This document shows, piece by piece, positions 1 to 32,161 of a stretch of DNA of 64,000 bases. The position numbers and the translations under genes are program-made. A model generated the notes under the pieces. It saw nothing but the letters and a program-made list of their open reading frames with translations. It did no database searches and had not been told where the DNA came from. Origin of the DNA: Mesostigma viride (taxonomy: Eukaryota; Streptophyta; Mesostigmatophyceae; Mesostigmatales; Mesostigmataceae). How positions within the stretch are numbered: the stretch's first letter is position 1; every line of letters begins with the position of its first letter. Location: the NCBI GenBank assembly GCA_009746045.1, contig RPFO01000015.1, forward strand, positions 1,954,998-2,018,997. Direction: 5' to 3'.

Positions 1-7887
<7,887 letters not shown>

Positions 7888-7956
7888 GGTCCCACGCGGA
7901 ATGGGGTCATTTTTGGCGCATTTTGCAAGAAAAAAACGCTAGTTTCAATCGTCCGA
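7888..7956 (+). repeat. Left terminal inverted repeat of the giant element
   Basis: Matches the reverse complement of 32,102-32,161 with one small length difference after the first 20 bases. The AT-rich, GCGCGAATTTGG-bearing DNA just inside (7,957-8,150) has a looser counterpart at the other end (GCGCCGAAATT motifs at 32,018-32,095), which could be subterminal binding sites. 7,957-8,177 holds no gene. Confidence 0.75.
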
Positions 7957-8177
7957 TATCTTTTTTTCGCGCGAATTTGGCGTCCGATCGCGTATTTTCG
8001 AGCTAATTTGGTGTCATAATGCTTAATTCATGTCAATTTGAGCGTACATTCCACATCGAGAGGCTTGAAAGTTAGTAATTCATGTAAATTTTACGTGGAG
8101 AGACTCGACATCATCCTAACCTTTGTATTAACCATAGGACGAGCATTGCCAGCGCATGTCCAAGTGCTAACTTTCCC

Positions 8178-8774
8178 TCACACTTTCGAGGGCCTCTTCC
8201 GTAATTTCGCTTCCGCGATCTGCTGTTCCGTTTTCGAGTTCCTCCTCTTCTTATCGATCTCCTTTGCAGGCGCCCAGACTTCCACATCCTTCCAGCTCTT
8301 GCCATCCGTCAGCTTTACCACCTTCATCGCGTAGTCCAGCGGCATCCACCACAACTTGTTCTTCAACTTCCCTCCCTTCTCCCCCTCAGCGAAAAACTTA
8401 AATGCGACGTCCCTCCACTTGGTGTCGTATCCAGACACCTGCCCATAAAGCATGACGTCTTCTAGCTTGGCATACATTGGCGTAGCCGTATCCTTGTTCC
8501 CTGCTTGCATAATGGCTGCAGTCCACCCATCACACCAAAAGGCCTCTGGTGCTCCGAACCCCATTTCCCCGTCCATAAGTCTCATTTCCAACGTGGGCTT
8601 GTCATCATCCTCATCGCCCGCCTGACTGTCTTCGGCCCCCTTAGGCTCCTCCCGTCCGGAAGTGTCAGCATGTACAGCCGCTGGTCCGAAGCCCACCGCC
8701 ACATTAGCCAAGCGAAGTAACTGCTCCACATCCTCATTACCTGCGTGCAAACCGATCATGCCATCAACGCATGA
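8178..8774 (-). CDS. Giant gene exon 9: C-terminus
   Basis: 199 codons including the stop. It follows a short intron of about 57 bp (8,775-8,831) with a CTAAC branch-like site and a TTTTAG acceptor. Contains MIGLHAGNEDVEQLLRLANV, a GAPEAFWCDGWTAA block, and a basic tail (KKRRNSKTEQQIAEAKLRKR). No family was recognised. Confidence 0.65.
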   Translation of the reverse strand, partial: SCVDGMIGLHAGNEDVEQLLRLANVAVGFGPAAVHADTSGREEPKGAEDSQAGDEDDDKPTLEMRLMDGEMGFGAPEAFWCDGWTAAIMQAGNKDTATPMYAKLEDVMLYGQVSGYDTKWRDVAFKFFAEGEKGGKLKNKLWWMPLDYAMKVVKLTDGKSWKDVEVWAPAKEIDKKRRNSKTEQQIAEAKLRKRPSKV

Positions 8775-8831
8775 CTAAAATCGAGTTAGTAGAAATCGGA
8801 CTGCCAACCGTAAAAAATCAAAACACTCTAC

Positions 8832-11800
8832 ATACCAGAATTCACTCGCAGATTTTTTCTTACCCTTTTTGGCCTTTTCCTTCGACCTCTGCTCGCAGGT
8901 AGACCCCGTCTGGTGGTGGGGGGCAGGCGCCGGGGCGGGTTTGGCGGGCTCGGCAACCTTGGCAGTCTTCGCGGTCTTGGGTAACTTCTTGGAAGCAACG
9001 CGCTCCTTTCCCCCGTCCTCCTCCTCTCCGCCGCCATCCTCCTCCTCCTTCTCCTCCTCATCGTCCGAATCTGAAAGCACAACTGCTTTTCGACGTCGTT
9101 TCTGAGGCAGGGCAGGCTTGGGAGGCTTCCCCACCTTGGCCGATTTCTTGGAAGCAACGTGCTCCGCAGCCTTCCCACCCTTGGCGGATTTCTTGGTAGC
9201 AACGGGCTGCTCCTCCTCCTCCTCCTCCTCCTCCTCCTCCCCCTCCTCCTCCTCAGCATCGTCGTCCTCCTCCTCCTCCTCCTCCTCCTCAGCATCGTCG
9301 TCCGAATCAGCCACTGCCACAACTGGCTTACGAAGCTGCTTCTTCGGTACCTGAGAAATGGCCAGAGTCGGCGGGGGAACCCGAAGCTGCTTCTTCGGTA
9401 CCTGAGAACTGGGAAGAGGCGCCGGGGTGGGCAGAGTCGCCGGGGGAACCCGAAGCTGCTTCTTCGGAACCTGAAAAACGGGCTGCGACGCGGCAGGCTT
9501 GGAAGGCCCACCTCCATCATCCTCAACAAGTGACACGACTGCCCGTCGAGTCACTTGAGAAGCGGGCTTCTTCGCCGCAGGCGGATCCGAATCACCTTCA
9601 GGCCCCGTCATCTGTTCGGCCTGCTGCGTTCTGACCTCGACGGGGGTCTCTCCGCGGTTAGACCCTCCTGCCGGACCTCCATCCCCTCCATCCCCTCCCT
9701 CCAACAACTGTTGGTCATCCCTCTCCACCACGGCGGACAATCCCCCAGCTTCGTGGGAAGCTTTTCGCTTCTTCGCCCTTCCGAGCCTAGGCCCCCCATC
9801 ACCTTCCCCCTGTTCAAGCCGCTCCCACAATTCACTCCCTTTCCCGATCCTTTCCACTATCTCTTGAAACCCCTTAATCTCCGTCTCGGTACCAAACACG
9901 ATCACCATCGGTTCGAACCTGGAGAAAAAGTCGTGGGCGCAAGCCTTCAGCACATGATCGTACATCCCGCCCGGTTGGGGAATGTCCGAAGCTTTCGGGC
10001 AAGGACCGAACGCCCACCACCCTCTCTGAAAGTTACTCCACTTATCACCCCAAATGTTCGCCAAGTTCAGCAGGCTCAGGCACGGAAGGGACCTGCCCAA
10101 GGGAAAGGGGCGGGCTGAAGCTGAGGCAACCTCGCCTGCCACCTGCTTGACGAGCGACTTGTCATCATCATCACCGTCTAGGGCCTGACAGCAAAACCAG
10201 ACCCGGCGACGGCCCCAGTCCACACTCTGCCACTCATACTTCACGTCCCACTCCTCCTCCTCCTTCTTCGCCTCCGTCTCCTTCCCCTTCCCCTTCCCCT
10301 TCGATCCCTTCTCCAGCCCCTTCGGCCGGGCCCACTTCAAATGTTCCGAAAAGTGTGACACTTTTGGTCGTTTTTTTGACTTTTTCGACGATCGTCACTC
10401 TGCAGAGTGATTCGTCGTGCGAAATCGTGCGAAATTGTGCGAAATTTGCTGAAATCGTGTGAAATTTGCTGAAATCGTGCGAATTTGTGCGAAATTTGCT
10501 GAAATTGTGCGAAATTTCATGTGAAAAATGTCGACGGTAAAAAATTTTGATGTGCACAACGTGTGTGAATTCATGCGAAATTTTGTCAAACGTCACTCCC
10601 CAAAACGACCCTTGGTTGAAATCCATGCGAAATTGTGCGAAATCATGCAAAATTGTGCGAAATCGTGCGAAATCGTGCGAAAATGTGTGAAAATTTTGCG
10701 AAAATCACGCGAAAATCACGCGAACTCGTGCGAAATTTTATTTTTTTTTTGCAAAAAACGACCAAAAGTGTCACACGCTTGGCTTGGACGGCGGAACATT
10801 TGAAGTGGGCCCGGCCCTTCACCGGCCCCTTCATCGCCGCCTCCTTCACCCCCCCTTCGAGTAATCCAACTTGTGGAGCGTACTTCCTGAACGCTTCCGG
10901 AGCAAAAAGTGCCAAACCCACCGTCTTGTCCTCGCTCTCTTTTAGCAGAATCTCCTGAAAGTCGATCTTGCCATTACTGATATCCTTTCTCGGAATCCTC
11001 AGATGTGCGGCGTGTTTTTTGGCTTTAAGAAGGTAGGCGATGTTCCTCGTTATGATGACGGCCACATCCCAAAATTCCCGGTATCTGGCCACAATCTCCT
11101 TCCTGCCGACCGGCCGAGCGAGAGGATGGAGATTGAAGACGAGTTCGAAAATATGAGACGCCACAAACTCCTTGCCATTTGCGTCCTTGCATCGCGCTTC
11201 CAGCGTCACATCCTCCTTGAATCTGGCGCAAATGGTCAGCCGCAGGCACTCCAGCACATCCTTGGCGATCTCCACCAACTTGGTGAGCTTTTCCGGTCCA
11301 ACCTGGCAGCTCATGATGCAATCGATCACGGCGTCCATCATAGGAAGGCTGGCCAAGTTCCTGAAAGAAGTCCAAGAGACCTTCTGGCCTTTCTTCTCCC
11401 CCTCTGCATTGGCGAATTTGCACCTTTGCATCATCACCTCCTCAGGCGCGGGTTTCGTTGAGGCAGGATCATCAGTCTGCTCCTGTGTCAGACGGAGAAA
11501 CGTGTTGGCCAGCGTGCGACTGTAAGCGGAATGCACTGAAGCAATGCTGTGGGCCGGCTTTTTCTTTCCTTCTGCTTCCTCCTCGTGTACATCCACCGCT
11601 GCCGGCTCCACATTCCCTTCCCTTCCCCCCGCTTGCCGCATAGCCGGGAGGATGTACGTGAGCAGATTGGTGTAGCGGCCATCCGCAATATAGTGGCCCT
11701 TCCCACGCGTGACTTTGCCGTATAGATATAGCTTGTTGTAGTTCCACACGTCAAGCAACGCCTGGCCCAGCGCACGATCCGCCACGGCTAAGTCCTCCGA

Positions 11801-11854
11801 ATTCGCCCCCTTGGCGATGTCGAACAGCTTCTCCAGCTTGCCGGTCAGCACCGC
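8832..11854 (-). pseudogene. Giant gene exon 8, split by a 493-bp MITE
   Basis: Starts at the TGTCGCAG acceptor (AVLTGKLEKLFDIAKG) and ends near 8,832. The donor is not certain: GTAGAG keeps phase, GTATGT four bases earlier does not. The MITE at 10,324-10,816 interrupts it; removal with one CTTC copy reads GPVK-GLEKGSKGKGK in frame, 842 codons. The first about 345 codons are globular. Then come Lys/Glu, a WWAFGPCPKASD block, three repeats of QVPKKQLR, and long Asp/Glu and Lys stretches (about 9,000-9,350). Confidence 0.7.
10324..10816. mobile_element. 493-bp MITE in exon 8
   Basis: Perfect 25-bp inverted ends starting GGCCGGGCCCACTTCAAATG. A second inverted pair of about 24 bp (GTGTGACACTTTTGGTCG...) lies just inside. 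The interior is two blocks of GTGCGAAAT-type tandem repeats. The duplicated CTTC (10,320-10,323 and 10,817-10,820) is the likely target site. There is no coding capacity. Confidence 0.85.
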
Positions 11855-12110
11855 CTGCGACATCAATTAACATCGAGCGAGCAACGACAAAACTCAGTCA
11901 TAAAAGGCCAGGGGTATAGCTGCGGATAGACCCTAACAAAATTCGAAAAAGAAACGGCCGACAATACGCAACGAAAACTCCAACAAAAAAAAGGAGAGGG
12001 TCTAGCTGCAGCGAGACCCTCGCAAAAAACTTGAAGCGCACACAAAAAACAACCACGACAAATTCCGAGGGTCTACCCGCAGCTAGACCCTGCCAAAATA
12101 GATAGCTTAC

Positions 12111-15100
12111 ATCTTCTTTTGCCTTAGGTAGATTTCGCAGCTCACTCCACGACGGGAGCAGGTCGCCACCCTTGAGAAGAATCGGATTTCTCTGAAAATA
12201 GTTTATTTAACAGCATGCGGGAAAGAAAGGGCCGCCACAACCTTGTGGCTGTACATGCAGAAAGGCTTGTTAGACGAATGGGGACGGCTTGTTGTTTACC
12301 GGGGAATCCTACTGGCAACTAGCTTTGCCTTTTGTAAGTCAGGCGCCGTTTGTTTGAACGGCCGGCCATGTGTTGAATGCTGACGGAAGTTGCGTCAAAA
12401 AGCTGTAATAAAATCTGATGTAACCAGCACTCACCAATTGATTGGTGTGCTGCTTGGTTGGGTAGTGTGTTCAGGGTTGCATTCGAAGAGTACACATGGC
12501 CTGACAGCTCAGACGTGTGACAGATGAGCTGGCTGGCTGAATTATTAAATTGTCAGCGTTACGATATTTCTGGTTTTGCCGTTTTCCATTTTGACGGTAG
12601 GCTTGATAAGCATGGTCGGCGGGTTGTGACCCGTAATTGTTTCTTTGAATGTGCTCACTGAAGCAGTATGCGCGGCCTCGCTGCTATGGCGGCGGGGCTA
12701 AAGAAAATTAGGCAAAGACCCCGTCCTTGCCTGCTATGAAGTCGCGGGCTTTGCGACTTCACGGCAGGTAGGGGCGGTTTGAACGGAACGGAAATTTCGC
12801 GTTACCAATGTGCCAAGTGGTTCTGGTTGGCACCTTGCTGGGCAGCGTCTCGGTGGTCATAGAAAGTGGGCTGGGCGCCCCGCCCCGGCTGCTGGTAATT
12901 CCAGCAGCGGAGCCAATCATGTCGACTAAGAAGTCCGCAGCTGATGCGGAAACTGTGCGAAGGTCAATAGATTAATTTGGATTCCATGAGACTGCGCTGG
13001 TAGTCAGTCAGCGGCCCACCGCCTAGGGCGCTGCATGGCGCTGCCTTCGGCTTGGTGCGCGGCCCTTTTTTGTTATGGGCCAGCGAGGGATATAAGGGTG
13101 ACGCGCGGCCGGCTAATTTCTTGCGTTCCGGAAGAAAATATATTTGCAAAATTCCCACAAAAGGAACCGAGTATCGGAAAGGCGTCTCGGCTGGCAGTGG
13201 CAGTGCCTGGCCTTGTCGTCTCTCCCTGCTCAGCACCCGGCAGGTAGCGGTTCAAACCCTGGTGGCGTCAGAATGCGAATTTTCTGGGTTTTTATCCGGA
13301 ATAATATTTTGCTGAGGCGGCTCCGCGGATTCGCTAACCTTTTATTGTCGGGCCCCTTAGGGGGTTATTATAGCCTTGTGCGGGCTGAGTCGCCATGAAG
13401 GAGATGTTGCGACACGCCCCACTTTGTGGTCTTTTATGGAAGCGGCTACCCTCGAGGCTGCTCGGAAGAGGGGGGGGGTCTTCTCCTTTTCTTTGTTCAC
13501 TGTTATTGGGGCAACAGTGATCCTATCAAGTTTTGTTTCCTGAGCGGCGACAGTGCGGGGGAGGAGGGTAATGGCGCCAGGGACTGGGGTGGATCGGGGG
13601 GCTCTTGCTCCTGCATGCGAGGGAGACGAGATGGCTACTTAAACCTGCCTTTGGCAGGGGCTCTACTCATTGTTTTCAATCAAATGCTGGTTTTCTTGGG
13701 AGCTCAAGTGTCATAATCGGATTTCTCTGAAAATAGTTTATTAAACAGCATGCGGGAAAGAAAGGGCCGCCACAACCTTGTGGCTGTACATGCAGAAAGG
13801 CTTGTTAGACGAATGGGGACGGCTTGTTGTTTACCGGGGAATCCTACTGGCAACTAGCTTTGCCTTTTGTAAGTCAGGCGCCGTTTGTTTGAACGGCCGG
13901 CCATGTGTTGAATGCTGACGGAAGTTGCGTCAAAAAGCTGTAATAAAATCTGATGTAACCAGCACTCACCAATTGATTGGTGTGCTGCTTGGTTGGGTAG
14001 TGTGTTCAGGGTTGCATTCGAAGAGTACACATGGCCTGACAGCTCAGACGTGTGACAGATGAGCTGGCTGGCTGAATTATTAAATTGTCAGCGTTACGAT
14101 ATTTCTGGTTTTGCCGTTTTCCATTTTGACGGTAGGCTTGATAAGCATGGTCGGCGGGTTGTGACCCGTAATTGTTTCTTCCCACCCATCCCACCCTTGG
14201 GGGGCTCTTGCTCCTGCATGCGAGGGAGACGAGATGGCTACTTAAACCTGCCTTTGGCAGGGGCTCTACTCATTGTTTTCAATCAAATGCTGGTTTTCTT
14301 GGGAGCTCAAGTGTCATAATGACGTTCGTACCCATGTAACCACCACGGAATTTCCGCAACAGGTCCTGGAATGCTTGCTCCGCCTCCTTAGGAGTATTTG
14401 CGAAATTGGACTCCGCCCCACCCTCGCACATCATTGCCCGAACCTCTCCCCACCCGCCATCCGGCCCCCTGAGAAACGACTTTAACCCCTTAAAGTAGTG
14501 GTTCCCATCCACCACCGCGTACCGGAGAACCAGATACGGTACCGGTACCCGTTCCTCAAAAAATTTCGGATCGTAGGACTTCATCGCAGTATTGCACAGC
14601 AGGTTGAACACAACCCGACTGCCCTCGATCTCCTGAGGCAAAACTGCGGCCACCTCGTCCACCCTGGCGTAGGTACGCCACTCAAGTCCTCTCGCGAGGA
14701 AAGAGGTGGTGGACTCCGTGTTAAGCCACACGTCGACTTCAGTATCCGAAAGGGGCCGGAAGTACCTGGACCCCACATCCTCCGCGTCAATCTTGGCGCC
14801 GTGGTAATGCTTCAGCCACTTGACGAAATCCGGCATGCACAAGATTTGCTTGTCGAACAGGTCAGGTTGAGATTCGGCAAGCGCCTGGAAAGGGAACTGC
14901 CAGACCGGGACAACAACCTTGAAGTGCAAGGCGTTGTCCCGCGCATTGAGGAGAATGCGGCCGTTCTCCTTAATGGTTTCAAGGTTTAAACGCCGCTGCC
15001 TCAAAGCTTCTGGCAAAATAAGCGCGTTGACCGTCTGGATCCGCATACTGAAACATCCGGTCTGCTGAAAATCGGCCGGCCGAATCCAACGCGTTTCCCT

Positions 15101-15415
15101 GAGAGAATTGGCCTTCCGGATGTTCTGGTCCCTGACCTCCTTGTTCGAGTCGACCTTTTTCGAAGGCTTCCAGCTTTCAATGATAGGGTCGGTGTCCGGG
15201 TTCCCACTGCTCGTGAGCACCCCCTCCTTAAAAAGCTTGTTGAGTGACCGGAGCAGCTCAAGAAAGGGGGAGAACTCGGGCCAGTTTGGCAGGTCATCGA
15301 CGTCCGCCATCCGCCTACTCGAGCAGTACTTGAGCATATCCTTCACCAGCGCGAACACGGCGTCATGACCAGGTAACTTCTTCTCCACCGTGGCGTCTTC
15401 GTCCCCCCCGTCATC
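12111..15415 (-). pseudogene. Giant gene exon 7, split by a 2.1-kb element
   Basis: The coding parts are 15,415-14,318 and 12,182-12,111. The insertion 12,183-14,317 with AAT duplications lies between. Removing it gives GYMGTNVILLKGGDLLPSWS in frame and a 389-codon exon. The acceptor is TTTTTTACTTCAG, followed by DDGGDEDATV; the donor is GTAAGC. The block has a folded look (e.g. VVVPVWQFPFQALAESQPDL, VEVWLNTES-like). No family was recognised. Confidence 0.72.
12183..14317. mobile_element. Tandem non-autonomous element, copy 1 (full unit plus deleted unit)
   Basis: Unit 1 is 12,183-13,714 (1,532 bp); unit 2 is 13,718-14,317 (600 bp, internal deletion). Both start CGGATTTCTCTG and end CTCAAGTGTCAT. 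AAT occurs before, between and after them, so the target duplication is 3 bp. The ends are not inverted. Contains hairpins (TGAAGTCGC / GCGACTTCA at about 12,738-12,762) and GGTTCAAACCC, which resembles a tRNA B-box, at about 13,250. No plausible protein. The same dimer is at 42,186-44,275. Confidence 0.85.
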
Positions 15416-15607
15416 CTGAAGTAAAAAATCGAAAAGGACCGCAGGATTTGCTCAAGTCAGTAATATTTAGGCCGACCACGACATCCTGTTCAGCCGGGAC
15501 GAACAAAGTTCTGTTGGAATAATACCTTACTGACACTCAACACCAAGTCCCGCAGCCAGTCAGCGTCTACCCGCAGCGAGAGGTCTAAATTTTCACAACA
15601 ATCGTAC

Positions 15608-17872
15608 CTGTCCAGTTTTCTGCTGCTTCTTGGCCTCCTTAGCCTTCTCCTTCTCCGCCTTCTTCGCCTCCTTCTCCGCCGCCTTCGCCTCCGCGTTCTT
15701 CTTACTGTTGGCCTTTGCCACCGCATTCAGCGCCCTTTTTCCCTCAGCGGCCCGACGACGAAAATCAGCCTTCATGAATTTCTCGATCTTCTCAACCTTT
15801 GCCTCTGAGTACTCCTTAGGCTGCCACTTGAAATTCTTGGTGGCTTTCGACCTCACCAGATTTACAAATTCATATGCCAATTCACTATTAACTCGTCGTC
15901 TGTCCCTGGTCCTCTACGGAGGACTGAGTTGAACTCAGTCCTCTCTAGAGGACCGAGTTTTTGGGTTTCGTAGAAAATTCGCCCCGGTCAGAATGTTTGA
16001 CAAAAAAATTCTCTCAAAATTTATTCAAATACTACGTGAAAAGATCTTTCTTGGACATATTTTTGGGATTTTTTTGGATTTGGTATGCGCGGCTAACTGT
16101 ACGGTCAAAGTACAGGTGGTAAGGGTACTTTTCCACGTGAAACGCGAGTTCCGGAAATGCACGACCTAGCCATGGCGGCTCGCGCCCATGCATGCAGTTT
16201 ACGTTTGCGGACGAGTTAGCCGTCCAAACTCAGTAAATAGATTTAAAATGCCCTAAAGATGATATAAATCAATTTTTAGCTCGCGGGGATGCGATTTACC
16301 CAGTGTCGGCACTGTTCTTGCTGGAAAAAACTGCGATAAGGCAGGTCGACGGAATTGATTACTGCGCTTGCTTTCCGGCGCAATTTCAATGGCTGATAGG
16401 TTTCTTTCTACATGTTAACATGAGTTGCATTAGAATATATTGAGTGACAGTATAGATTTGATGATCTCGACCATTCTGTCACGTCATGGTCTATGTGCCG
16501 CAAAGTGCCACTTTTGCGGGCACCGCCTGGGCCAAGGTAACGCCAGCCGTGCCAGGTAAAGCCGGATAATCGTTGCCTCTTCGTTCCTTGATGTTCGTAC
16601 ATGAGTTTAAGCTTGCGAGGCGTTGTCAGGTTCAAGTCTTGATGCTCTTTCTTGACCGTTGCCTGCCCCTCTCTAAAACCCCCTTTTCAGATGATGTTAG
16701 CAGGCATTTGCCTTAACCCAGTGTAGTTGTGCAGGGTTTTAGGAGCTGTGCAGGTTTAAACACCTTCATAGATGTTAGTTATTCTTTTGCTACGTTCATA
16801 CTGCATGATTGTGTGGCCACGGGCTGCGTCAAGGGTGCATTCAAGCTTTTACGGGTGAGTGAAAAGTCTTGGTGACAAACCACTGCCATCATGTGCCAGC
16901 AACTATGTTGGCCACATCATGGCAAGGCAAAACAGTTATAGCCATATCTATTGTTGTTTGAAACAATGGAAATATGCTTAACCTACCCATTATATTGGTG
17001 GTTGACACTTATAACATAACCCTTTGTTGGTAGGTATCCAAGCCCATTCCCTACATGCATGCATAGGCTCTCACTACATGATAAGGTATGATATACCTGA
17101 AGTATGATGATGCAAGTGTGTTGTCCTGTAATGCTTGAAGGGAAATGAGTTGATTGGGATGGTTGGTGGCCACGGTGATGTAGTATGACCGCACTTACAT
17201 GCTAGCAAAGTTAGCAAAAGCCCCATTCCTCTCCTGAGGACTGAGAGTTTTTTAATTGTTTCAGGCAGTTGCAGTGGCCAAATGGAGCCCAGTTTTTTGC
17301 CACGCTTCAAGAACTATGTTGTTTACATGCCTATATTTTTTCTTCATGCACCAGGATTTGATTAAATTTTTCCCACTCGTTCTTATCCCGAAAAATGCAA
17401 ATTCGCGAGGGGCGCCCAACGTCCGTGTAATTTTCAGGTGTTCGGGTCAAGTTTTCACATATGCAGTATTTTTGCCAACAAAATGATATCTAGTACACCC
17501 CAGATCCACATCAAAACATTTGGGATGGACCCCCCACCTAGTCGCTACACGCGGTTGAAAATTGTCAACTCAGTCCTCCTGTGAGGACTGAGTTGGGACA
17601 GACGACGAGTTAAGGGTAGCGACACCCAACACCTCCGTATCGAAATCGGCATCGACTTCCGCCTCAAGTCGTGTCAGGTACTTGCGAAACTCGGACCCCG
17701 CAGGTCCCTCCGAATCGACGCCATCGGGCGGAGACTTAAGCATGATCAGGCCAACAGCAATAATATGATCCTTCGCAACCTTCTTGCGGGAATCCAGCTT
17801 TTCCCTTTCATGCTCAGTCAATGGAGGCTTCGCCGCCTTCCCCCCCGCAGTACCCCCAGCGACAGCCCCCGC
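15608..17872 (-). pseudogene. Giant gene exon 6, split by a 1.7-kb TIR element
   Basis: The coding parts are 17,872-17,613 and 15,890-15,608. The element 15,891-17,610 and one TA copy lie between. Joining at TA reads ..GVATL-NSELAYEFV.. in one frame, 181 codons in total. The 5' part has a helical Lys/Glu segment (LTEHEREKLDSRKK). The 3' part is a Lys/Ala/Glu coiled coil (KAEKEKAKEAKKQQK) before the GTACGA donor. Confidence 0.7.
15891..17610. mobile_element. 1.72-kb TIR element with TA target site
   Basis: Ends are inverted: ACTCGTCGTCTGTCCC at the left and its complement at the right, flanked by TA on both sides. Near each end is a foldable AACTCAGTCCTC / GAGGACTGAGTT pair. The interior is AT-rich with no credible gene, so it is non-autonomous. 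The TA site suggests Tc1/mariner-type chemistry, by inference only. Confidence 0.82.
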
Positions 17873-17998
17873 CTGCATGACAAAAAAAAACGAACAAGAA
17901 GGGACTTCACCTCAGTTCGATTGTTGCACCATCGTCTCTCTGCGGAGATACCCCTCAGCACGAAAAAAATCACACGAACTCGCGGCGGATGAACGTAC

Positions 17999-18514
17999 CT
18001 GCACAGCCACTTCTCCCTCAGCGTCTCCCCCATCCTCATCTCCTCCAGCGTTTTCATCCCCCCCATCCTCATCTCCTCCAGCGTTTTCTTCCTCTCCGGC
18101 AGCGCCTGCTGAGGCCAAACCCCCCGCCTGTCAACACCGAATACGACAGCTCATTGGAAATCAAAATTAGTCGACATTTGTATATTTCGCATAATGCGCT
18201 CACTAAAACTTCAGGCGAAATGCAGACATCCGGATATCGTTTAATGCTTACCATTTCCATCTCGAGTCCAGACCAAAGACCAGCACTGTCAACAGCCATC
18301 GCCGCAGCCGCCCCCTGAAAAAAGAAAACAGATTGGTTGGGGGCACCGTTGAAATTAGCCGAACATGTCAGTCTCAATAAAAGGGTGAGGGTCTACCTGC
18401 AGCTAGACCCCATGTAAGATGCTCGTGGAAACCCGACGGACAAGCACCCACCTTATCAACCAAGTCTGACAAATTAGGTAAATCCTCCGATACGTCCCCT
18501 GGCATGGAGCCCCC
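17999..18514 (-). CDS. Giant gene exons 3-5: three small exons
   Basis: Exon 3 (18,514-18,452) has 21 codons, exon 4 (18,314-18,252) 21 codons, and exon 5 (18,127-17,999) 43 codons. Each is flanked by CAG acceptors and GTGGGT, GTAAGC or GTACGT donors, and each is a multiple of three in phase 0. Exon 5 holds a duplicated acidic unit, ENAGGDEDGGD. Small symmetric exons can be skipped without frame change. The intron between exons 3 and 4 contains one copy of the GGTCT..CTGCAG..AGACC palindrome (18,389-18,411). Confidence 0.65.
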
Positions 18515-18621
18515 CTGCATGATATGACAGGACAAACCATGAAGGTTGGTCAGCATATAGAGCCCTATTCAGGGAATGGAAACAACCCAAATCGATAAAC
18601 GATATCGGCAAGTTAACGTAC

Positions 18622-19674
18622 CGAAACGTAGAACTTCCACCTCCTCAAAATCTTCCCCAAAGGCCATATCGGAACTTGATGGGCTCTCTCCTTTTCCAGT
18701 TGCCGCCTCAATTCCGCCTCGAAGAACAACTCGAGGGACTGCCAATGGCCTCCCGCCTCTAAATCAGACCACTCCGTGTCTGTCTTGGTTCGGATACTCT
18801 GGAGACAATCAACCAACGAGATTTGATCCAACCATTCCTGGACGATTTCCCGGTATGGCTTATATGTCTGAATAACATGGAAGTCCTCCCGGTGCCGGAA
18901 ACTTTGGATCACCTGTCCAGCCCAATCCAAAAAGAAAGCGACCGCTTCCCGCGAAAGGCTGGCGTCCGGGCTAACAAGAAAGTCAGTCCGCCACTTAACA
19001 AAAGATTGCAGTAAGTGGTCTCTTGCCATGTCCAAATGCGCGATCACTTCATGTGCGCGCTCCTCCAATCCTCCTACGTCATTCATTCTTCCCGGCACAA
19101 TTACGATAAAGTCACTGTTGGACGTGTCAACAAATCCTTGCCTGACAATATCAAACACTTCATCTTCCGACAGTGAAGCCCTCGAATCCGCTCTCATATC
19201 TCCAGTCATGAGTTTAAAGAGCTGATGCAACGCAGTGGTTTTCAAGGTTTCCATATAGGAAGCCTCGATGCATGTGAAGCCAATGTGGACCTCGAACTTT
19301 TCAACCTCATCAAAGAGCGTCGACCATATTAAAGCACGACGGGGAAAGTAACGTCCGACATCCTCCTTCAGATTAAGGATGCACGACTGCGCGATCTTCA
19401 AAACCTCATACATGTCGTCACCAACGACCCTCTTCCCATGAATGGCTCGCAGTGTGGCTCCGAACAAAGCAAGCTGGCCGCAGCGGTCGTTCTTCCAAAT
19501 TACGTTCTGACTGGAGGACACTCGGTTGGCGACGACACCGGACTTCTCTGCAAACCCTATCTCGGCCGAAAGAAAGCGGATCAAGCCTCTCAAGCCCTTT
19601 TCGGCTTTACGACTCACCCCAGACTCAGACTCAGCCTGAGCCAGGTACTGTTTCAGAATGGCCAGCGTGTCGGG
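18622..19674 (-). CDS. Giant gene exon 2: globular block
   Basis: Open for 351 codons between a TTGTTGTCTGCAG acceptor and a GTACGT donor. Begins PDTLAILKQYLAQAESESG and is predicted mostly helical from its hydrophobic spacing. It includes GRYFPRRALIWSTLFDEVEK and FIVIVPGRMNDVGG. Codon use and lack of repeats suggest a real folded domain. I recognise no family. Confidence 0.7.
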
Positions 19675-21194: not shown

Positions 21195-21590
21195 TTTGGC
21201 GTCTCGCTGCAGCGAGACCCTCACTTCAAGCAAAAACAAATCATTTTTAGGGTGAGCGAAAACAAGCAACCTCCCATCATGCAAACATAAAAAAGTATAC
21301 ATTCCTTGGGGTCTCGCTGCAGCGAGACCCTAACGTCAAACAAAAACAAATAATTTTTAGGGTGAGCGAAGAAAGCCCCCTCCCATCTTGCAAACATTAA
21401 AAGTCGACATTCGTAGGGGTCTCGCTGCAGCGAGACCCTAACACCGATACAAAAACAAATCGTGAGAAAAGAAAGACCCCCCCATCATGAAAACATGAAA
21501 AATTGACATTCCTTGGGGTCTCGCTGCAGCGAGACCCTTACGTCAATACAAAAACAAAATTCCGAGGGTCTACCCGCAGCGAGACCCTTA
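21195..21590. repeat. Tandem repeats of about 108 bp, each with a palindrome
   Basis: Four to five copies starting near 21,195, 21,305, 21,412, 21,512 and 21,562. Each carries GGTCTCGCTGCAGCGAGACC followed by CAAAAACAAAT and GGGTGAGCGAA. They sit directly upstream of the giant minus-strand gene, where a promoter is expected. No other function is visible. Confidence 0.85.
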
Positions 21591-21594
21591 CGAC

Positions 21595-22625
21595 CACGTA
21601 TAAATACATGTGGGGGGGGGAAGCTACGTATAAATACATGTGGGGGGGGGATGCTATGTATAAATGCATGTGGGGGGGTGCTGGCATTAATAATTAAATG
21701 TGGGGGGGTGATGGCATGAATAAATAAATGTGGGGGGGTGCTGCCATGAATAAAAGAATGTGGGGGTGTGATGGCATGAATAAATGAATGTTGGGGGGTG
21801 CTGGCATTAATCATTAAATGTGGGGGGTGATGGCATGAATAAATAAATGTGGGGGGGTGCTGCCATGAATAAAAGAATGTGGGGGTGTGATGGCATGAAT
21901 AAATGAATGTTGGGGGGTGCTGGCATTAATAATTAAATGTGGGGGGTGATGGCATGAATAAATAAATGTGGGGGGTGCTGCCATGAATAAAAGAATGTGG
22001 GGGTGTGATGGCATGAATAAATGAATGTTGGGGGGTGCTGGCATTAATAATTAAATGTGGGGGGGTGATGGCATGAATAAATAAATGTGGGGGGGTGCTG
22101 CCATGAATAAAAGAATGTGGGGGGTGATGGCATGAATAAATAAATGTGGTGGGGTGCTGCCATGAATAAAAGAATGTGGGGGGGTGATGGCATGAATAAA
22201 TAAATGTGGGGGGTGCTGCCATGAATAAAAGAATGTGAGGGTGTGATGGCATGAATAAATGAATGTTGGGGGGTGCTGGCATTAATAATTAAATGTGGGG
22301 GGGTGATGGCATGAATAAATAAATGTGGGGGGGTGCTGCCATGAATAAAAGAATGTGGGGGGGTGATGGCATGAATAAATGAATGTTGGGGGGTGCTGGC
22401 ATTAATAATTAAATGTGGGGGGGTGATGGCATGAATAAATAAATGTGGGGGGGTGCTGGCATTAATCATTAAATGTGGGGGGGTGATGGCATGAATAAAT
22501 AAATGTGGGGGGGTGCTGCCATGAATAAAAGAATGTGGGGGTGTGATGGCATGAATAAATGAATGTTGGGGGGTGCTGGCATTAATAATTAAATGTGGGG
22601 GGGTGATGGCATGAATAAATAAATG
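21595..22625. repeat. Minisatellite 1, 30-bp units, G-rich on plus
   Basis: About 34 units with variants such as GGCATGAATAAATAAATGTG followed by GGGGGGTG. They alternate between GATGGC, GCTGCC and GCTGGC spacers. The first units still contain TACGTATAAATACATGTGG, the reverse complement of the unit in minisatellite 2. As 30 is a multiple of three, the array has long stop-free frames that are not genes. Confidence 0.95.
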
Positions 22626-22669
22626 ATACGTAGCATCACCCCCCCACATGTCAAAGAGACAACATGTAT

Positions 22670-24093
22670 TGATACGTACGTAGCAGCACCCCCCCACATG
22701 TATTGATACGTAGCAGCACCCCCCCACATGTATTGATACGTAGCAGCACCCCCCCACATGTATTGATACGTAGCAGCACCCCCCACATGTATTGATACGT
22801 AGCAGCACCCCCCACATGTATTGATACGTAGCAGCACCCCCCACATGTATTGATACGTAGCAGCACCCCCCCACATGTATTGATACGTAGCAGCACCCCC
22901 CCACATGTATTGATACGTAGCAGCACCCCCCCACATGTATTGATACGTAGCAGCACCCCCCCACATGTATTGATACGTAGCAGCACCCCCCCACATGTAT
23001 TGATACGTAGCAGCACCCCCCCACATGTATTGATACGTAGCAGCACCCCCCCACATGTATTGATACGTAGCAGCACCCCCCCACATGTATTGATACGTAG
23101 CAGCACCCCCCCACATGTATTGATACGTAGCAGCACCCCCCCACATGTATTGATACGTAGCAGCACCCCCCCACATGTATTGATACGTAGCAGCACCCCC
23201 CCACATGTATTGATACGTAGCAGCACCCCCCACATGTATTGATACGTAGCAGCACCCCCCCACATGTATTGATACGTAGCAGCACCCCCCCACATGTATT
23301 GATACGTAGCAGCACCCCCCCACATGTATTGATACGTAGCAGCACCCCCCACATGTATTGATACGTAGCAGCACCCCCCCACATGTATTGATACGTAGCA
23401 GCACCCCCCCACATGTATTGATACGTAGCAGCACCCCCCCACATGTATTGATACGTAGCAGCACCCCCCCACATGTATTGATACGTAGCAGCACCCCCCA
23501 CATGTATTGATACGTAGCAGCACCCCCCCACATGTATTGATACGTAGCAGCACCCCCCACATGTATTGATACGTAGCAGCACCCCCCCACATGTATTGAT
23601 ACGTAGCAGCACCCCCCCACATGTATTGATACGTAGCAGCACCCCCCCACATGTATTGATACGTAGCAGCACCCCCCCACATGTATTGATACGTAGCAGC
23701 ACCCCCCCACATGTATTGATACGTAGCAGCACCCCCCCACATGTATTGATACGTAGCAGCACCCCCCCACATGTATTGATACGTAGCAGCACCCCCCCAC
23801 ATGTATTGATACGTAGCAGCACCCCCCCACATGTATTGATACGTAGCAGCACCCCCCCACATGTATTGATACGTAGCAGCACCCCCCCACATGTATTGAT
23901 ACGTAGCAGCACCCCCCCACATGTATTGATACGTAGCAGCACCCCCCCACATGTATTGATACGTAGCAGCACCCCCCCACATGTATTGATACGTAGCAGC
24001 ACCCCCCCACATGTATTGATACGTAGCAGCACCCCCCCACATGTATTGATACGTAGCAGCACCCCCCCACATGTATTGATACGTAGCAGCACA
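22670..24093. repeat. Minisatellite 2, 30-bp units, inverted to array 1
   Basis: About 47 highly uniform units of ACATGTATTGATACGTAGCA followed by GCACCCCCCC; a few have one C fewer (29 bp). Uniformity suggests recent expansion. The junction with array 1 (22,625-22,670) is an inversion point. Stop-free frames through it are artefacts of the period. Confidence 0.95.
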
Positions 24094-24095
24094 AT

Positions 24096-24815: not shown

Positions 24816-25918
24816 GGTTGCAGCTGGTTACTATTAGCTATGGGGTCTCTCTGCGGCTGCGCTTCTTTTTCGATGGGCGATGGGACGGTCGCAATTCGCA
24901 AACCGGACGCGGCGTCACAGGGCTGAACGGTATTGAAAAAATTGGAAACGTGGCATCCTCGTTCCTCCCCACGGAACTGAAAACTGGAAGCGCGGCGCTG
25001 GTGCAAAAGCTCGATCCCATCTTTTGGAACCAAGCTAGCGGATTGGACGACATCCAATATGCCGTCACCCGTGCTTGTGGCCGCAGGTATAAAAAGAGAC
25101 GACCTCCAGCCCATTTACCTGGGAACATTCGGATGTTTGGCTGACATCGTTACCATGCAGAAATGTTCAATGAGGTTCTGGGTTCGATTCCTGGTGTGGT
25201 CATGGAAATAAATTTTTTTCTGCACATCTACTGAAATCAGTCATAGCACCAAACGGTCACGCTGCAGCGAGACGCTATAGCCCTGGAGGCCGCTGATAAA
25301 CCTGACATCCGGTATGTCTTACTATCATAGATTGCCGAACTATATAATAATAATAGTCTATACCACTTTTTCTTGTAAATCATTTACTAAATAATGATTC
25401 TATATACTTTAACATACCATATTATTAAAGTATGTGGAATTTAACCATGCTATTCACAATATATTATAAAATCTTTTGCAAAATATACTGTAATTAGTAT
25501 ATATATTTTCTGATAAACAATTTTATCAATGCTACTGTGTTATTTTTGTTATTCTCGCCATGCAGGTATCTGAGTGTTCTGGGAGAACTAATAAGAGAAT
25601 GAGCCGCGAAGGTGAGGAAAACCTGAAATCTTTTCGTCCTTATTGGGGTCTCTCTGCAGCTAGACCATTTATAACCACAAGCAATAGCTTAAATTCAAGG
25701 GTCTCGCTGCAGCTAGACCCTCTTTATGGTTGCTATAAAATTAATGAATCAGAAGTCTGTGATTTAACAATCGCACGCCGCAATGAAGGGTCTAGCTGCA
25801 GCGAGACCCCAATCTTGGTCGGGGTATGCTAAGTTCACCACATCAGGTAATCTTTTCGTCTAACGGAAAAAGCCCCTCTAAGGGTCTAGCTGCAGCTAGA
25901 CCCCAATCGTGGTAAAAA
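24816..25918. other. Non-coding upstream region of the transposase-like gene
   Basis: 24,816-25,300 has no credible gene. It includes GGTTCTGGGTTCGATTCC near 25,175, a tRNA T-arm look-alike without a matching acceptor. 25,310-25,555 is strongly AT-rich. Four palindrome copies lie at 25,645-25,904, the last ending about 15 bases before the first ATG used for the gene. The divergent promoters are expected here and at 21.1-21.6 kb, but I cannot place them. Confidence 0.6.
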
Positions 25919-28900
25919 ATGATACACTTTCGAACTTTGTCTGTAATTGTCGCTTTTCCCAACGATACTCGATTTGCATGGATTTCGTTGTGCCGGTCGT
26001 CATGGCATGCAGCACGCGAACGGGTGGGAGTTTTCGCCCTTGCGTCCGGTCGTCCAGGATTCAGTGCAATTAAGTTGAACACCGGGACGAAGCAGTCAAC
26101 TGGCGCAAAAAGGGTTTTCGGAGATGAGAACCAGAATCCAGCGCAGCCTGAAGCCAAGGAAGTCAAGCGGCCGGGAGAATACTCGAAATCAAAGAGGGTT
26201 ATTGGGGAATATTTCGCTGACCAGGCGTTTGAAGCGGCTCAGGCGATGACAAAACCCGAGGGGCGGGGGCCGGCTTTCGACCAGATGATTGCTGGCTTTA
26301 ACTCTAGGGCCGCTGAACTAGGTCACGGGAAGTATCATGAGGAGGCGAAAAAGCTTTACAATCAGGAGCGGATGGCAGAACTGAACAGGTTCTGGGTGGC
26401 TCGGATTAACGGCTTTTTTGATGGTCTGACCAAAAGCGACGCAGACAGAGACGTCAGGATGGTGCTGATGTCCACGCTTTACTGTGGTGACGACTTGGAG
26501 AAGGAGTTTTCGGCCGCGGAGTTGGAGAACCTGACGGGGATGGACGCCAAGAAGATTCGCGGAATTCGCGCGATACGAAGGCAGCAGAAGTTGGACTACC
26601 TCAGACACGCGCAGGCTCGCAAGGGGCGCCCTTTGCCGCAATTCGTGATTGACGCGATAGTGGACGCGTGGATGCACGATGATGAGTCGCGCGCCTCCTC
26701 CCAGATGAAGGATGTCAAGCGCACTTACAGCAGGGAGGGTCATGGCAATCGCGGGGTGCTCGTCGCCGTTGAGGGAGCGCGCTATTACATGACCTCCAAG
26801 GAGGACATGTACAATCACTTTCTCGAAAAGCATGCGTACTGGAACAAAAGGAGTGACCAGTATGATAAGGACGTGGGCATTCACGTGGGCTACACGACCT
26901 TCTGCAAATACGCGCCCGATTGCATCAAGGGCAAGTGGAAGGAGAGGAACCTGTGCGCGTGTGAGAAGCACGTCACCATGCAGTCGGCCATGGGGGCGTG
27001 GACCAAGCACTGCAATGCGAACCACGGCAAGAACTGCAAGTGTGGCGCGGAGTGTGCGGGATGCTCCAAGTACAGACAGCCGGACGGTACTTGCGGAATG
27101 TGGAAAGCCATTCACTCGACGGACTGGATCAAGCACTTTCACTGCCCGGTGTCCGCCGAGACTGACGGCAGGGATAACGGGCTGCGTGAAGGGGGCGGAA
27201 TGGGCGGGGGGATGGAAGAGGGGGAGGGGGAAGATGAATGGCGGGGACGGGACCTGGAAGACCTCGACATTTCTGAGAGGCTGGTGGAGGACGAAGATGG
27301 GGTGCCGAGGACGGAGAGGGTTCACCGCATACTGAAGATGGCGTGTGTGGAGGGGTTCTGTCCTGAGGAATCATGCGGCATCCATAATAACTGGGTGCAG
27401 TGTGATCGGGACAAGAATTCCACGGAGATTCTGAATTGGTTCAAGTTCGAGATGGTGGAGCAGACTGTGACCCGAGGGGTGAGGGTGAGTAGGTTTCGAT
27501 TTTATTTCTCCGTTAAATGTTGTTGACTTTTTGTTTTTGTGACCTATAGCTGCAGCGAGACCCTTTGTGAGTTGCAGTTATGATCGAAATGCGATTTTAT
27601 TGCAAATCGAAACTGTCTGCGGACCTTTGCGAAACAGGGCGAGACCGATGGCAGGGCGGCGAAGAAGGTGAAGCGGCCCGAGCAAGTCCAAATGAGGTCC
27701 ACCCCAGCTGAGCTGCGGGACGAGATTCTTAAGAGGTGGGACAAGTTCACCGTGCACTGCTTTACGGCCTGGTCGCAGGCGGATACAATCAAGGATCGGG
27801 AGAAGAATCTGAGAGAGGGGGACGTGCTCGTGCACGGCGACTGGGCCGAGAACTACGAGAACAGCAGCTACGTCCAACTGCAGTCGCAGTACTTCCACAA
27901 GCGCAGCCACATCCTGATGCCCATGATCGTGCGTTATCGGCTCAACGGCGAGCTGGAAAAGCGCGTCTTCTTTTTCCTGGGGGATTCCAGTATCAAGCGG
28001 GGCGAGCGCGCACTCGTATACGCTCTTCGCAAGATTCTGGAAACCCTGCGGGTAGAAGTAGGGGTAGAGGTGCGAAACCTGTACATGTGCTCGGACAACT
28101 GCGCGGTGCAGTTTAAGTCCAGGTACGTGATTAACCAGATTAACGGTCTGCTCATGGGGGATCCCGACCTGCAGGCCTTTGAGTTCCACTACATGGGGGA
28201 GCAGCATGGGAAGGGGGAGGTGGATGGTCAAGGAGCGAAGTGCAAGTGCGTCTTGAGGGAAATGCAGAGGATTCCCGAAAACCAGCACATACTTGAGACC
28301 CACCAGCTAGTCGCCTACTTGAACCAGAACTGGCAGGGCGGCAAGACATCGAGCAGGGAGTCGGCCCGCGCGCGGGCCGAGAACGTCACTCGCCACTTCT
28401 TCCTTTTACCCCCGGTACGGAATTGTGTGTTATTTCAGGTTTTAAGACGTCAACTGCCGCTGTTCTATAAAAATTCAAACCCAATAAAGGTATCTCTGCA
28501 GAGAGACCCTATATACTGTCCATGGGTTGCTTTTCTTTTAGGTATGAAATTTCGCTTGTTCTTTCGGTATGAAGGGGTCTCTCTGCAGCTATACCCTGTG
28601 TCGAATTTCGATCACTTGATATCTTGTCGTACGTTGTTATTATGATTCGAATGGGGTCTCTCTGCAGCTATACCCTGTGTCGAATTTTGATCACTTGATA
28701 TCTTGTCGTACGTTGTTATTATGATTCGAATGGGGTCTCTCTGCAGCTATACCCTGTGTCGAATTTTGATCACTTGATGTCTTGTCGTTAATTTTTTTTT
28801 TAAGGGGTCTCTCTGCAGCTATACCCTGTTTTATTGGTTTTTGGTCAATTTTGCTAATTTGAACGGTATTCTTTTTGTCCTAACTATTTGATGACAGGAC

Positions 28901-30453
28901 GTCGAGTCCGGCCGACGCGCGGAGGTTGAGGAGGTGCCTGGCATCAAGAAGGCGCATTGGTGGCGACTGGACAAGTCCGACCCTGGCCTTTTGATGATTA
29001 GGCGCTATTCCTGCTACTGTCCGCCCTGTTTGGCTGGGCGGTTTGAGGGATGTCTAAGCGAGTGGTCGTTTATCATCGAGTTCAATGATGCAGGAAGCTC
29101 GATGAAAACTGTCCGTTTGCTGCCACCGAGCCAGCCCAACCCTCCGGTTCGCATGGTGACGCGGGGGGAGCAGCTTAAGGACAAGCGGGAGGCGATGGGC
29201 CGGCAGATGAGACTCCACGACTATGTGGCAGTTCCATCGGACAAGGACACGGATCACGATCCCATCCACCCGTTCTGGTTGGCTGAGGTTGTAAGCGAAG
29301 CCGGGCCGATCGTGTTAGACGAGAACTTCGAGAGGTGGGTCGAGGGCCGGAACGGACGGGAGAAGGAGCTGTTCCTCGCCGGGAACGGCATTCTTCCCGT
29401 TCGGATTTGGAAGCGGGATAAGCATGACCCCCTGCATTTCACGCTCAACGTTGAGGATTGGCCACCTGTTTGAATTGGGAGAGGAAACTAATGGGTTTTA
29501 CACAATGCCTTGTGCTTGGCCTTGCTACCCACACACCTTGCAGGTGCTGAAAGAAAGAGAGGTTGAAGACAATTTACGTGGAAGAATAAATGGCTTTATT
29601 AGAATATAATAGTTGGAGAAGAGCTTGAATGGAGGTTGAATGGAGGTACCTGCCCTTAGGGGGCAGTTTCCTTTTATAACTTTTAGGCTAGGAAGGATGA
29701 CATCAGCAATGACATCATCACAGAAGCTTGTAGAAACATCCTAGCATATTCCTAGCATATTCCCAGCATATTCTCAGTATATTCCAGGAATATTCCTGGC
29801 ATATTCTTAGAACATTCCTAGAACATTCTAGACATGATCCAATGAGCTGGCATAATAGCTAGATGCCAAGTGTCTACATAATAATGTGCCACATAACATG
29901 ATTAATAAAGTGACACATCTCTTCTCCTTGGAGTGACAAGTGTCATGCAATGAGTCTACCCACTTGTCATCATGTAAGTGATAACATGTGTCATCATGAG
30001 CTGCCAACACTTGTCAGCTCATGGACCAAACACTTGTCCAATAGGCCATAGCACCACCTGTCAATCAAATACGTGATGCTACTAGGCTGACTCAGGTTAC
30101 AAGTCATCCATGTCCAAGTATAGGACTATGGCACATGAATATTGATCAGCTCATTGAGCCCAATTCATCTAGCTTATCAAAGCTATCAAATTCCCAGTCC
30201 ATATGGAATAAATCCAACAAGAAATAAATCAGGCTGGGATATATTGTGGCCAGGTGGATATAATATCCCTAACACGTCACGCCAGCCCGAGCTTGTGAAT
30301 TGCTATCTCTGCGTCGCTCCGGCTCTCCGGCTAGAAGCACGCGTCCGCAGCGACGGAATGTGTGCCGACATCAGGATGAGCAAGGAGCTCGACAAGTGGC
30401 TTACTACGCTGGTGATCAAGGATGAAGCCCCGGAGGGGCCGGCACCGACTTAA
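25919..30453 (+). CDS. Transposase-like protein (AENY / HGKG family), four exons
   Basis: Exons 25,919-27,484; 27,638-28,414; 28,898-29,467; 30,286-30,453. All are in phase 0, giving about 1,026 residues. The family is known to me from uncharacterised, often repeated animal proteins with V-DFAENY, SDG..QYK and SHGKG..DG.G motifs, an RNase-H-like D/D/D arrangement. Here: GDWAENY at about residue 588, CSDNCAVQFKSRYV at about 675, and HYMGEQHGKGEVDGQGAKCK at about 711. N-terminal to this are a FCKYAPDCIKG..LCACEKH block (about 330) and a Cys-rich zinc-binding-type block, CNANHGKNCKCGAECAGC (about 365). Exon 3 has CYCPPCLAGRFEGC, then a HDYVAVPSD/FWLAEVV module. The start is uncertain. Intron 1 (153 bp) and intron 2 (483 bp) carry the palindrome. 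The copy is open throughout and may be intact. It is likely the mobility gene of the giant element (inference). Confidence 0.8.
28574..28825. repeat. 79-bp tandem repeats in intron 2
   Basis: Four copies (palindrome parts at 28,574, 28,653, 28,732 and 28,804). Each is GGGGTCTCTCTGCAGCTATA followed by CCCTGTGTCGAATTT and GATCACTTGAT. The repeats show that the palindrome can be amplified together with its flank. Confidence 0.85.
29468..30285. other. Intron 3 with probable inserted retroelement-like DNA
   Basis: Read as an intron it starts GTTTGA (weak donor) and ends CACGCCAG, joining DWPP to PELVNCYL in frame. Its length and composition differ from the other introns. It holds a TTTTATAAC sequence near 29,675 and an array of ATATTCC / GAACATTC motifs (29,735-29,835). 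It may be a solo LTR or similar; I found no matching ends or target duplication. Confidence 0.45.
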
Positions 30454-30959: not shown

Positions 30960-31114
30960 ACTTATTTGCCGGGCGCAGTTGTCATTCCGCCTAGTACAAT
31001 TGCGTCACTAGTACAATTTTTGTCTGGGTACGGTACGAACCAATAACGCAATATTTAGTATCTAATCGCCGCTGCTCTTGCTGAATTTTATCCGGAAGCT
31101 GAAACAGGTGTCCG

Positions 31115-31717
31115 GTGAAGCGAATACTAGTGACTGGTGGTCGTGCCCTTCCATTACTCCTTATCGACAAATTTTGGGTTCTACCTGCAGTTATAACCCT
31201 TGCGCGTCTGGCTGTCGGGGTCACCAATTTCCTGTCGATTGCAAGCAGCCAACCTTGCCGAAATTTAACACTGTCACAAATGGAGCAGAGCAATATTTTC
31301 GGTTCTCAGCATACCTATGTGATGGTCGACAAAAATGAGCACGCTGCAAACATCAGAATTGATGTAGAGTTGCTCGGACCTTCTGCACAGTGGGGTGCAG
31401 GTGTCATTGCGTTCGGCAATGGCATGATCGATCTGGTGCCACCCGATTCAGATTTGAACCCTGCTTACCAATGCGTGCCTGACAATCAGGCGAGAGTGGT
31501 GGTGGAGAGCACGGAAATTCCGGGCTCTCCCAATGTATCAATGATGCGCCTGAGGGCCGAGGCCCAGCAGGAGTTCCTGGCTGCTGCGGAGAACGGCGGG
31601 GCCAAGTGGAACACCAAAATGTATACAGGCGAGCCTCCCAACTACAGGGGAGACCAGTACCAGGGAGTGTACTCCTTCGGCGATTTTGACATCGACGGAT
31701 GGGGCACCTTTTTCTAG
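31115..31717 (+). CDS. Unrecognised open frame inside the giant element
   Basis: Open for 200 codons, ending FGDFDIDGWGTFF. The upstream part overlaps a palindrome (31,177-31,199) whose CTGCAG could act as a splice acceptor, so the true exon may begin at about 31,187 (VITLARLAVGVTNFL). The later part (MEQSNIFGSQHTYVMVDKNE, MYTGEPPNYRGDQYQGVYSF) has protein-like composition and suits a small globular product. No family was recognised. It lies between the transposase-like gene and the right inverted repeat, so it could be a cargo gene or last exon. Confidence 0.5.
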   Translation: MKRILVTGGRALPLLLIDKFWVLPAVITLARLAVGVTNFLSIASSQPCRNLTLSQMEQSNIFGSQHTYVMVDKNEHAANIRIDVELLGPSAQWGAGVIAFGNGMIDLVPPDSDLNPAYQCVPDNQARVVVESTEIPGSPNVSMMRLRAEAQQEFLAAAENGGAKWNTKMYTGEPPNYRGDQYQGVYSFGDFDIDGWGTFF

Positions 31718-32101
31718 GCGCAATGCCTAAGTTGTCAAATACTCCGACAATGTCAAAATTGCGAATGATAAAATTACGGACATGTGCACATATATGTACT
31801 GATTCAATAAAAAATTTCGGCAATTTTGTTCCCGGCATTGATAATCAAAAGCTGCTAGCAAGCCAAGGACTTCAAAAGTGGCAATAGATCGATGTAGGTC
31901 GTCGATAAACTTGTCTAGTCGTCATATTTGGGTCGCAAAATTCGTGCGTGGCCTGCAGGCATCGGACAAAGTGCACGCAACAGCAGGAGTCGGTTGAGTT
32001 CGAAGCACGGCAGACACAAAATTTCGGCGCAAAGTCCGTCGGGCGAAAAATTCGCTCGGCTGCCAAATTTTCGGCAAGAATTTCGGCGCAATGTCCGGTT
32101 T

Positions 32102-32161
32102 TCGGACGATTGAAATTAGCGTTTTTTTCTTGCAAAAATCTACCCCATTCCGCGTGGGACC
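32102..32161 (-). repeat. Right terminal inverted repeat of the giant element
   Basis: Reverse complement of the left end: GGTCCCACGCGGAATGGGGT, then TTTTGCAAGAAAAAAACGCT and TTTCAATCGTCCGA. 31,718-32,101 between the open frame and this repeat has no gene. Confidence 0.75.

Follow-up and report, generated by a model that had tools for sequence, protein, structure and literature searches.

We analyzed a 64,000-nt stretch of the Mesostigma viride genome (the window; contig RPFO01000015.1, 1,954,998-2,018,997, from an assembly of 440 Mb in 2,243 contigs) and found that it hosts a 24,282-bp element, spanning positions 7884-32165, which carries a transposase-like gene on the plus strand and a large partner gene on the minus strand. 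The element very probably represents a giant and very young family of cut-and-paste DNA transposons with terminal inverted repeats. We base this assignment on its defined ends, the many near-identical copies, the presence of both genes in the two copies that were compared in full, the 4-bp target-site duplications and the empty site. An earlier reading of the window (hereafter, the original prediction) held that one giant element had moved as a unit, and this view is supported by complete copies with the same ends, by duplications in five out of five cases, by four out of four empty sites and by the pairing of 36 of 57 left ends. The borders of the window copy are as follows.

7880..7883, unstranded: left 4-bp target-site duplication, TCCT (AGGA on the minus strand); AGGA is found here in all four fetched empty sites (L045-L048)
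7884..7956, plus strand: left terminal inverted repeat, beginning with GGGAGGTCCCACGCGGAATGGGGTC, delimited by pairwise end alignment; 166 left ends in the genome
32102..32165, minus strand: right terminal inverted repeat, delimited by pairwise end alignment; 233 right ends in the genome
32166..32172, unstranded: right target duplication, lengthened by three bases (TC-GGA-CT), from comparison with the four fetched empty sites

The inverted ends, GGGWGGTCCCACGCGGAATGGGGT, measure about 73 bp (left) and 64 bp (right) and can be aligned with each other with a single 10-bp indel and few mismatches. All 21 left ends present in 20 fetched left-end loci start with GGG[A/T]GGTCCCACGCGGAATGGGGTC, while the flanks of these loci are all different, except for two same-flank pairs, which sets 7884 as the left border. 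Right ends of copies for which both ends are in hand show the terminal GGG[A/T] as well; the right end, read inwards from its outermost base 32165, is GGGTGGTCCCACGCGGAATGGGGTAGA. Thus, the matching inverted ends of about 70 bp in the original prediction are confirmed by alignment, with the true limits lying 4 bp further out on each side. Complete copies bear inverted terminal repeats on both ends, as do class II transposons with terminal inverted repeats.

At first sight the flanks of the window copy lack a duplication, TCCT facing TCGG. The left-end flank is itself repeated, with 39 other places scored out of 400 candidates at 87-98% identity. Four of the best relatives were fetched, and each runs uninterrupted into the other flank at GCTGGCTGA[T/C]-AGGA-[C/G]TCAGCAG. 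The window, in the sense of the interrupted open reading frame (ORF), reads GCTGGCTGAT-AGTCCGA-element-AGGA-CTCAGCAG. Taken together, the four relatives and the window flanks indicate that the target was AGGA, which is intact on one side and has three bases added on the other (AG-TCC-GA). When the element is removed along with the 7 bp at its right edge, position 32173 joins exactly to 7883 and the frame is continuous; in the four relatives the ORF reads through the site. The two halves of this ORF are as follows.

32173..33468, minus strand: upstream half of the gag-like ORF, from the empty-site comparison; no Pfam match
7353..7883, minus strand: downstream half of the gag-like ORF, from the empty-site comparison; no Pfam match

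The original prediction, a minus-strand gag gene on both flanks with its frame restored by excision, is confirmed as to the flanking ORF and its frame. The two flanks are joined in all four relatives, none of which failed to connect them. The proposed join at 32162/7887 preserves the frame but is inexact, and the name gag is without Pfam support, as neither piece of the ORF matched a Pfam model, including those of gag families. A scan downstream of one empty copy found no ORF of 150 aa by which the retroelement could be identified. The interrupted frame is best described as a repeated gag-like ORF. The target duplications anticipated for other copies were found as well: those with both ends in hand are flanked by perfect 4-bp duplications (CCCT, TGCT, GGTT, GCCA and AGGC, 5/5), although TGCT sits in a repetitive site, where the true length could be greater. 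Duplications are accordingly of a fixed length of 4 bp, seen in the window copy as AGGA / AG(TCC)GA.

Ends were counted throughout the genome using patterns with up to 3 mismatches (in 40 bases for the left end), with reversed patterns as a control. This yielded 166 left ends, of which 77 are forward and 89 reverse, and 233 right ends (129 and 104, respectively) against 0 for the reversed controls; the ends are thus more frequent than expected by chance. Among left ends, 40 places were scored out of 461 candidates, the window counted, with identities of 97-100%. Pairing was based on the first 100 places listed for each end type, and left ends were kept where the list of right ends on the contig was complete (n=57). 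An inward-facing right end was found for 36 of them, at a distance of 16.1-58.4 kb (median 24.4 kb); within 80 kb, there were 7 same-strand combinations and 1 outward-facing combination. Inverted end pairs at a distance, another expectation of the original prediction, thus recur in the genome, and second copies exist. Miniature derivatives with both ends are not represented among the 36 pairs, of which the shortest measures 16.1 kb. A transposase exon follows 27 of the 40 scored left ends (26 of 39 without the window) at a distance of 14.3-37.2 kb in the same orientation, compared with about 0.008 expected per end. For the exon itself, 115 places were scored out of 996 candidates (89-100% identity, the window counted), and in 101 of them the matched stretch is free of stops. 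We considered stops in some of these exons as a sign of mobilization in trans but dropped the idea, since the query holds intron-derived residues, a possible seat of the stops. At one locus (L004, C557:402042-402596) two transposon copies adjoin back to back, with about 470 bp between their oppositely oriented left ends. Right ends outnumber left ends, and the unpaired right ends perhaps belong to subfamilies with other left ends.

A second complete copy, copy B (C2:4443648-4466110; 22,463 bp), was pieced together from adjoining fetched segments. It has both genes, with 92-99% identity to the window copy in aligned blocks. In window coordinates, copy B is missing about 475 bp near 10340-10814, and no alignment was obtained near 15.9-17.6 kb. 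Synonymous/non-synonymous differences between the copies amount to 10/30, 2/9 and 8/1 in the transposase blocks and 21/44 in the last partner exon, which does not give a clear picture of selection. Opposite window position 25690, upstream of the transposase gene, copy B contains an insertion of 1.7 kb that is flanked by TTAA, has inverted CCCCTAAATGG termini and is perhaps of the piggyBac or Kolobok type. The window copy, in turn, carries two nested insertions.

12183..14320, unstranded: nested insertion of about 2.14 kb with a 3-bp AAT duplication, absent from copy B
29467..30274, unstranded: 808-bp insertion that copy B and the right halves L025, L036 and L040 lack; truncates the transposase C-terminus

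The first of these corresponds to a repeat found by self-comparison (12180-14275 and 42183-44282), which is 99.1% identical between its two copies, one nested in the transposon and the other outside it, and has internal 466-bp direct repeats of its own. The 808-bp insertion replaces about 60 C-terminal transposase codons that are kept in copy B, and consequently the window copy may need help or may not be autonomous. Probably it moves only with the help of other copies or is no longer mobile.

The two divergent genes, one with a transposase-like core, are present as originally predicted in the form of ORF blocks, with predicted exon limits. The plus-strand gene comprises the following parts.

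25919..27480, plus strand: first transposase block with a cysteine-rich cluster (P0001); 3' limit inferred
27641..28425, plus strand: catalytic core (P0002), with acidic residues in HGDWAENY (codon 27839), CSDNC (28094) and HGKGEVDG (28217 E, 28223 D)
28899..29466, plus strand: third block (P0003), interrupted at its end in the window copy; copy B continues for about 60 codons
30275..30452 (end approximate), plus strand: displaced C-terminal coding part, from comparison with copy B

The acidic residues of the core are conserved in P0005 and also in P0006 as far as this sequence covers them. In the structure model the order of elements is strand-strand-strand-helix-strand-helix-strand-helix, with acidic residues that follow strands 1 and 4 and precede the next-to-last helices, and a structure search with this model matched RNase H, PIWI and retroviral integrase folds. 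Based on the model, the gene probably encodes a transposase with an RNase H-like core of the DDE/DDD type. No transposase was at the top of the Foldseek and VIA lists, although absence from them excludes nothing, and a sequence search with the core against solved structures gave no convincing match (one at E = 0.63). A search with P0002 retrieved one protein relative, and a profile search retrieved two, including the same one; one of them comes from the dinoflagellate Prorocentrum lima. Because just two relatives were found in total, rare eukaryotic transposases seem to be thinly covered in the libraries. In viral contigs, two strict peptide patterns yielded no confirmed relative, which is weak evidence given their strictness. 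A Pfam scan of ten ORFs of the element, shorter ORFs being outside the scan, gave only matches below cut-off.

The partner gene is delimited as follows.

8181..21067, minus strand: partner gene, from ORFs; joining into one gene and exon limits are inferred
21067-19928, 19755-18616, 18392-18072, 17911-17573, 15913-15596, 15451-14282, 11866-10780, 10394-8778 and 8774-8181, minus strand: partner ORF blocks

The first part of its product is of low complexity and charged, with SP/RS-like repeats. The original prediction of a large unknown partner gene is corroborated: five of its ORF blocks had no Pfam match above cut-off, exon 14282-15442, the only partner exon used in the homolog search, retrieved no protein homolog, and the 3' exon is present in 19/19 other left-end loci, from which alone the copy number of the gene is known. 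For exon 14282-15442, the search of solved structures gave a match to an RNA-dependent RNA polymerase (6dwx_A; E = 0.0032 over 65 residues) and a second one at E = 0.13, both regarded as chance. Comparison of exon 18616-19755 with solved structures by sequence gave no convincing match, and structure prediction for a partner exon gave no usable model. A weak hit to ZorG (PADLOC, E = 0.0092) in a lysine/alanine-rich exon was put down to composition.

Sola1 transposons make 4-bp duplications. The superfamily of our element is left open between Sola-like and new, since Sola was set against it by description only; tentatively, the element could be a new, giant Sola1-like family of the Sola superfamily. 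The length of the duplications also agrees with that of Sola2 (PMC3627910). In Ectocarpus, giant DNA transposons of >10 to >30 kb with nested insertions and accessory genes derive from Kyakuja-Dileera-Zisupton (KDZ), EnSpm and Sola-1 (PMC12477816, 2025); the same article refers to a KDZ element of 31.7 kb that is active in Chlamydomonas. Among the Ectocarpus families, the 21.5-kb Sola1-1_Ec32 resembles our element in being giant and in having its accessory gene and its transposase gene on opposite strands. However, the accessory protein of Sola1-1_Ec32 has ParB-like and DNA methyltransferase domains (PMC12477816), whereas the partner described here is without a domain match above cut-off. In addition, Sola2 duplications are AT-rich (AWWT) and the ends measure 12-21 bp (PMC3627910), in contrast to the mostly GC-rich duplications and the ends of 60-70 bp observed here.

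Apart from its genes, the element contains repeats, most conspicuously tandem arrays and a 22-bp palindrome.

21132..21587, unstranded: six clustered copies of the 22-bp palindrome GGGTCTCGCTGCAGCGAGACCC, mismatches included, on the partner side of the intergenic region
21594..22625, unstranded: intergenic 30-bp tandem array with G7 tracts
22662..24092, unstranded: second 30-bp tandem array with C7 tracts, in inverted orientation, between the genes; some other copies have a longer array in the part compared
25254..25903, unstranded: five clustered copies of the 22-bp palindrome, mismatches included, upstream of the transposase gene

The window copy has 24 palindromes at ≤5 mismatches (17 at ≤3), all within the element, and copy B has 22. 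None was found in 33 kb of flank, in 5 shuffles or in 20 simulated sequences. Eleven of the 24 are intergenic and 23 fall outside exons as set, one of these (19742) being at a block edge and placed outside by that setting. Repeated protein-binding sites are present inside En/Spm transposons, and by analogy the 22-bp palindrome may be a binding site for one of the element proteins. Alternatively, the palindromes might be remnants of a small intron-generating (introner-like) element or hairpin-forming RNA signals. This is possible but rather unlikely: outside the divergent region they do occur mostly in gaps between ORF blocks, the presumed introns of both genes, yet the intergenic eleven and their absence from the flank do not fit.

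The palindromes in the intergenic region and presumed introns would be the most probable binding sites for one or other of the two proteins. The plus-strand DDE/DDD transposase would bind and cut the 60-70-bp inverted ends and insert the element at staggered 4-bp cuts, whereas the large minus-strand protein could be an accessory DNA- or chromatin-binding factor that is needed for, or regulates, the movement of such a long element. We also considered, as an unlikely option, a new superfamily defined by a DDD/E transposase with HGDWAEN..SDNC..QFK..HGKGEVDG, 4-bp GC-tolerant duplications, GGGW ends and an obligatory partner recognizing dozens of dispersed 22-bp palindromes. If this were true, the palindromes and the partner would constitute a self-marking system for assembling and moving a 20-40-kb unit.

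The claim that no described element has this gene pair agrees with our searches of open-licence literature, in which we found no description of it, including in passages of PMC8226300, PMC4455052, PMC12730594, PMC6431247, PMC9587614, PMC3627910 and PMC12477816 (subscription papers and Repbase were outside the search). By contrast, a layout with an accessory gene on the opposite strand has been published (PMC12477816). Since giant two-gene DNA transposons are on record, the kind is known and the layout is no surprise; the interesting part is the orphan gene pair together with the element-specific palindromes.

It is distinctly unlikely that the transposase belongs to some other superfamily already described but not modelled by the libraries used (Academ, Novosib, IS3EU, Dada, the EnSpm/CMCT group or similar), a possibility favored by the scarcity of core relatives and the apparently thin coverage of rare eukaryotic transposases. 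KDZ transposases have cysteine clusters, comparable to the cysteine-rich region of the transposase found here, and Polinton/Maverick elements have inverted ends. In the CMCT group, duplications are 2-5 bp long, 4 included, but the ends are mostly CA..TG (PMC12730594). KDZ elements are similar to ours in their comparable size and accessory genes (PMC12477816, PMC12730594), but their duplications of 7 bp (Kyakuja) and 8 bp (Zisupton) rather than 4 bp speak against them (PMC12730594); moreover, described Kyakuja families have CA..TG ends without inverted repeats (PMC12730594, PMC12477816). Similarly, En/Spm (CACTA) elements are large, with several ORFs and a two-protein logic, and reach 16-20 kb in families of the red alga Chondrus (PMC6431247), but the families described in PMC12730594 have CAC..GTG termini and 3-bp duplications as opposed to GGG..CCC and 4 bp here. 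IS3EU, with 6-bp duplications and TAYGG termini in fungal families (PMC12730594), and Kolobok, with exclusively TTAA duplications (PMC9587614), do not agree with our element either. Polinton/Maverick elements are of similar length, 15-25 kb, and self-replicating, encoding DNA polymerase B, integrase, protease and packaging ATPase (PMC6431247), none of which was matched in the ten ORFs scanned against Pfam.

Several observations weigh against a giant transposon family. The model of the core is of low confidence and the core has no family-model match, though topology and residue placement fit. The 24.3 kb includes the nested insertions of 2.14 kb and 808 bp that are not in copy B, so part of the size of the element is acquired baggage. 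Finally, no partner lies within 80 kb of 21 of the 57 left ends or of 64 of the 100 listed right ends; contig ends, decay, deletions or other left-end variants may account for this. Partnerless ends and nested insertions would also suit a composite, either two smaller elements or a duplicated segment between copies of the same inverted repeat, that was mobilized by chance, but this is highly improbable, because left and right ends differ by the 10-bp indel and are told apart by pattern, all 36 left-right pairs face inwards with none below 16.1 kb, and both fully compared copies have the same internal genes.

Size is generally regarded as limiting for eukaryotic cut-and-paste transposons. A giant family of this type, with units mostly of 20-40 kb that spread recently, would exemplify the transposition of large cargo in nature, together with a protein that is a candidate helper, and its intact ends, empty sites and 4-bp duplications are clean material for asking which protein recognizes what.

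The remainder of the window contains other repeats. A near-perfect (CTG)n array of 6 kb (1-6096), followed by a CCCTTG array of 87 copies (6144-6664), lies near the gag-like ORF. On the plus strand, opposite to that of the gag-like ORF, a 1126-aa ORF (36574-39954) has Copia-type reverse transcriptase and integrase matches below Pfam cut-offs and probably belongs to a separate retroelement. Direct repeats of 595 bp (45756-46350 and 48988-49582; 99.7% identical, 3.2 kb apart) are perhaps the long terminal repeats of a short recent element, and a minus-strand ORF at 61201-62340, inside an inverted-repeat region (60119-62394), matches RVT_1 with an E-value of 1.4e-08.
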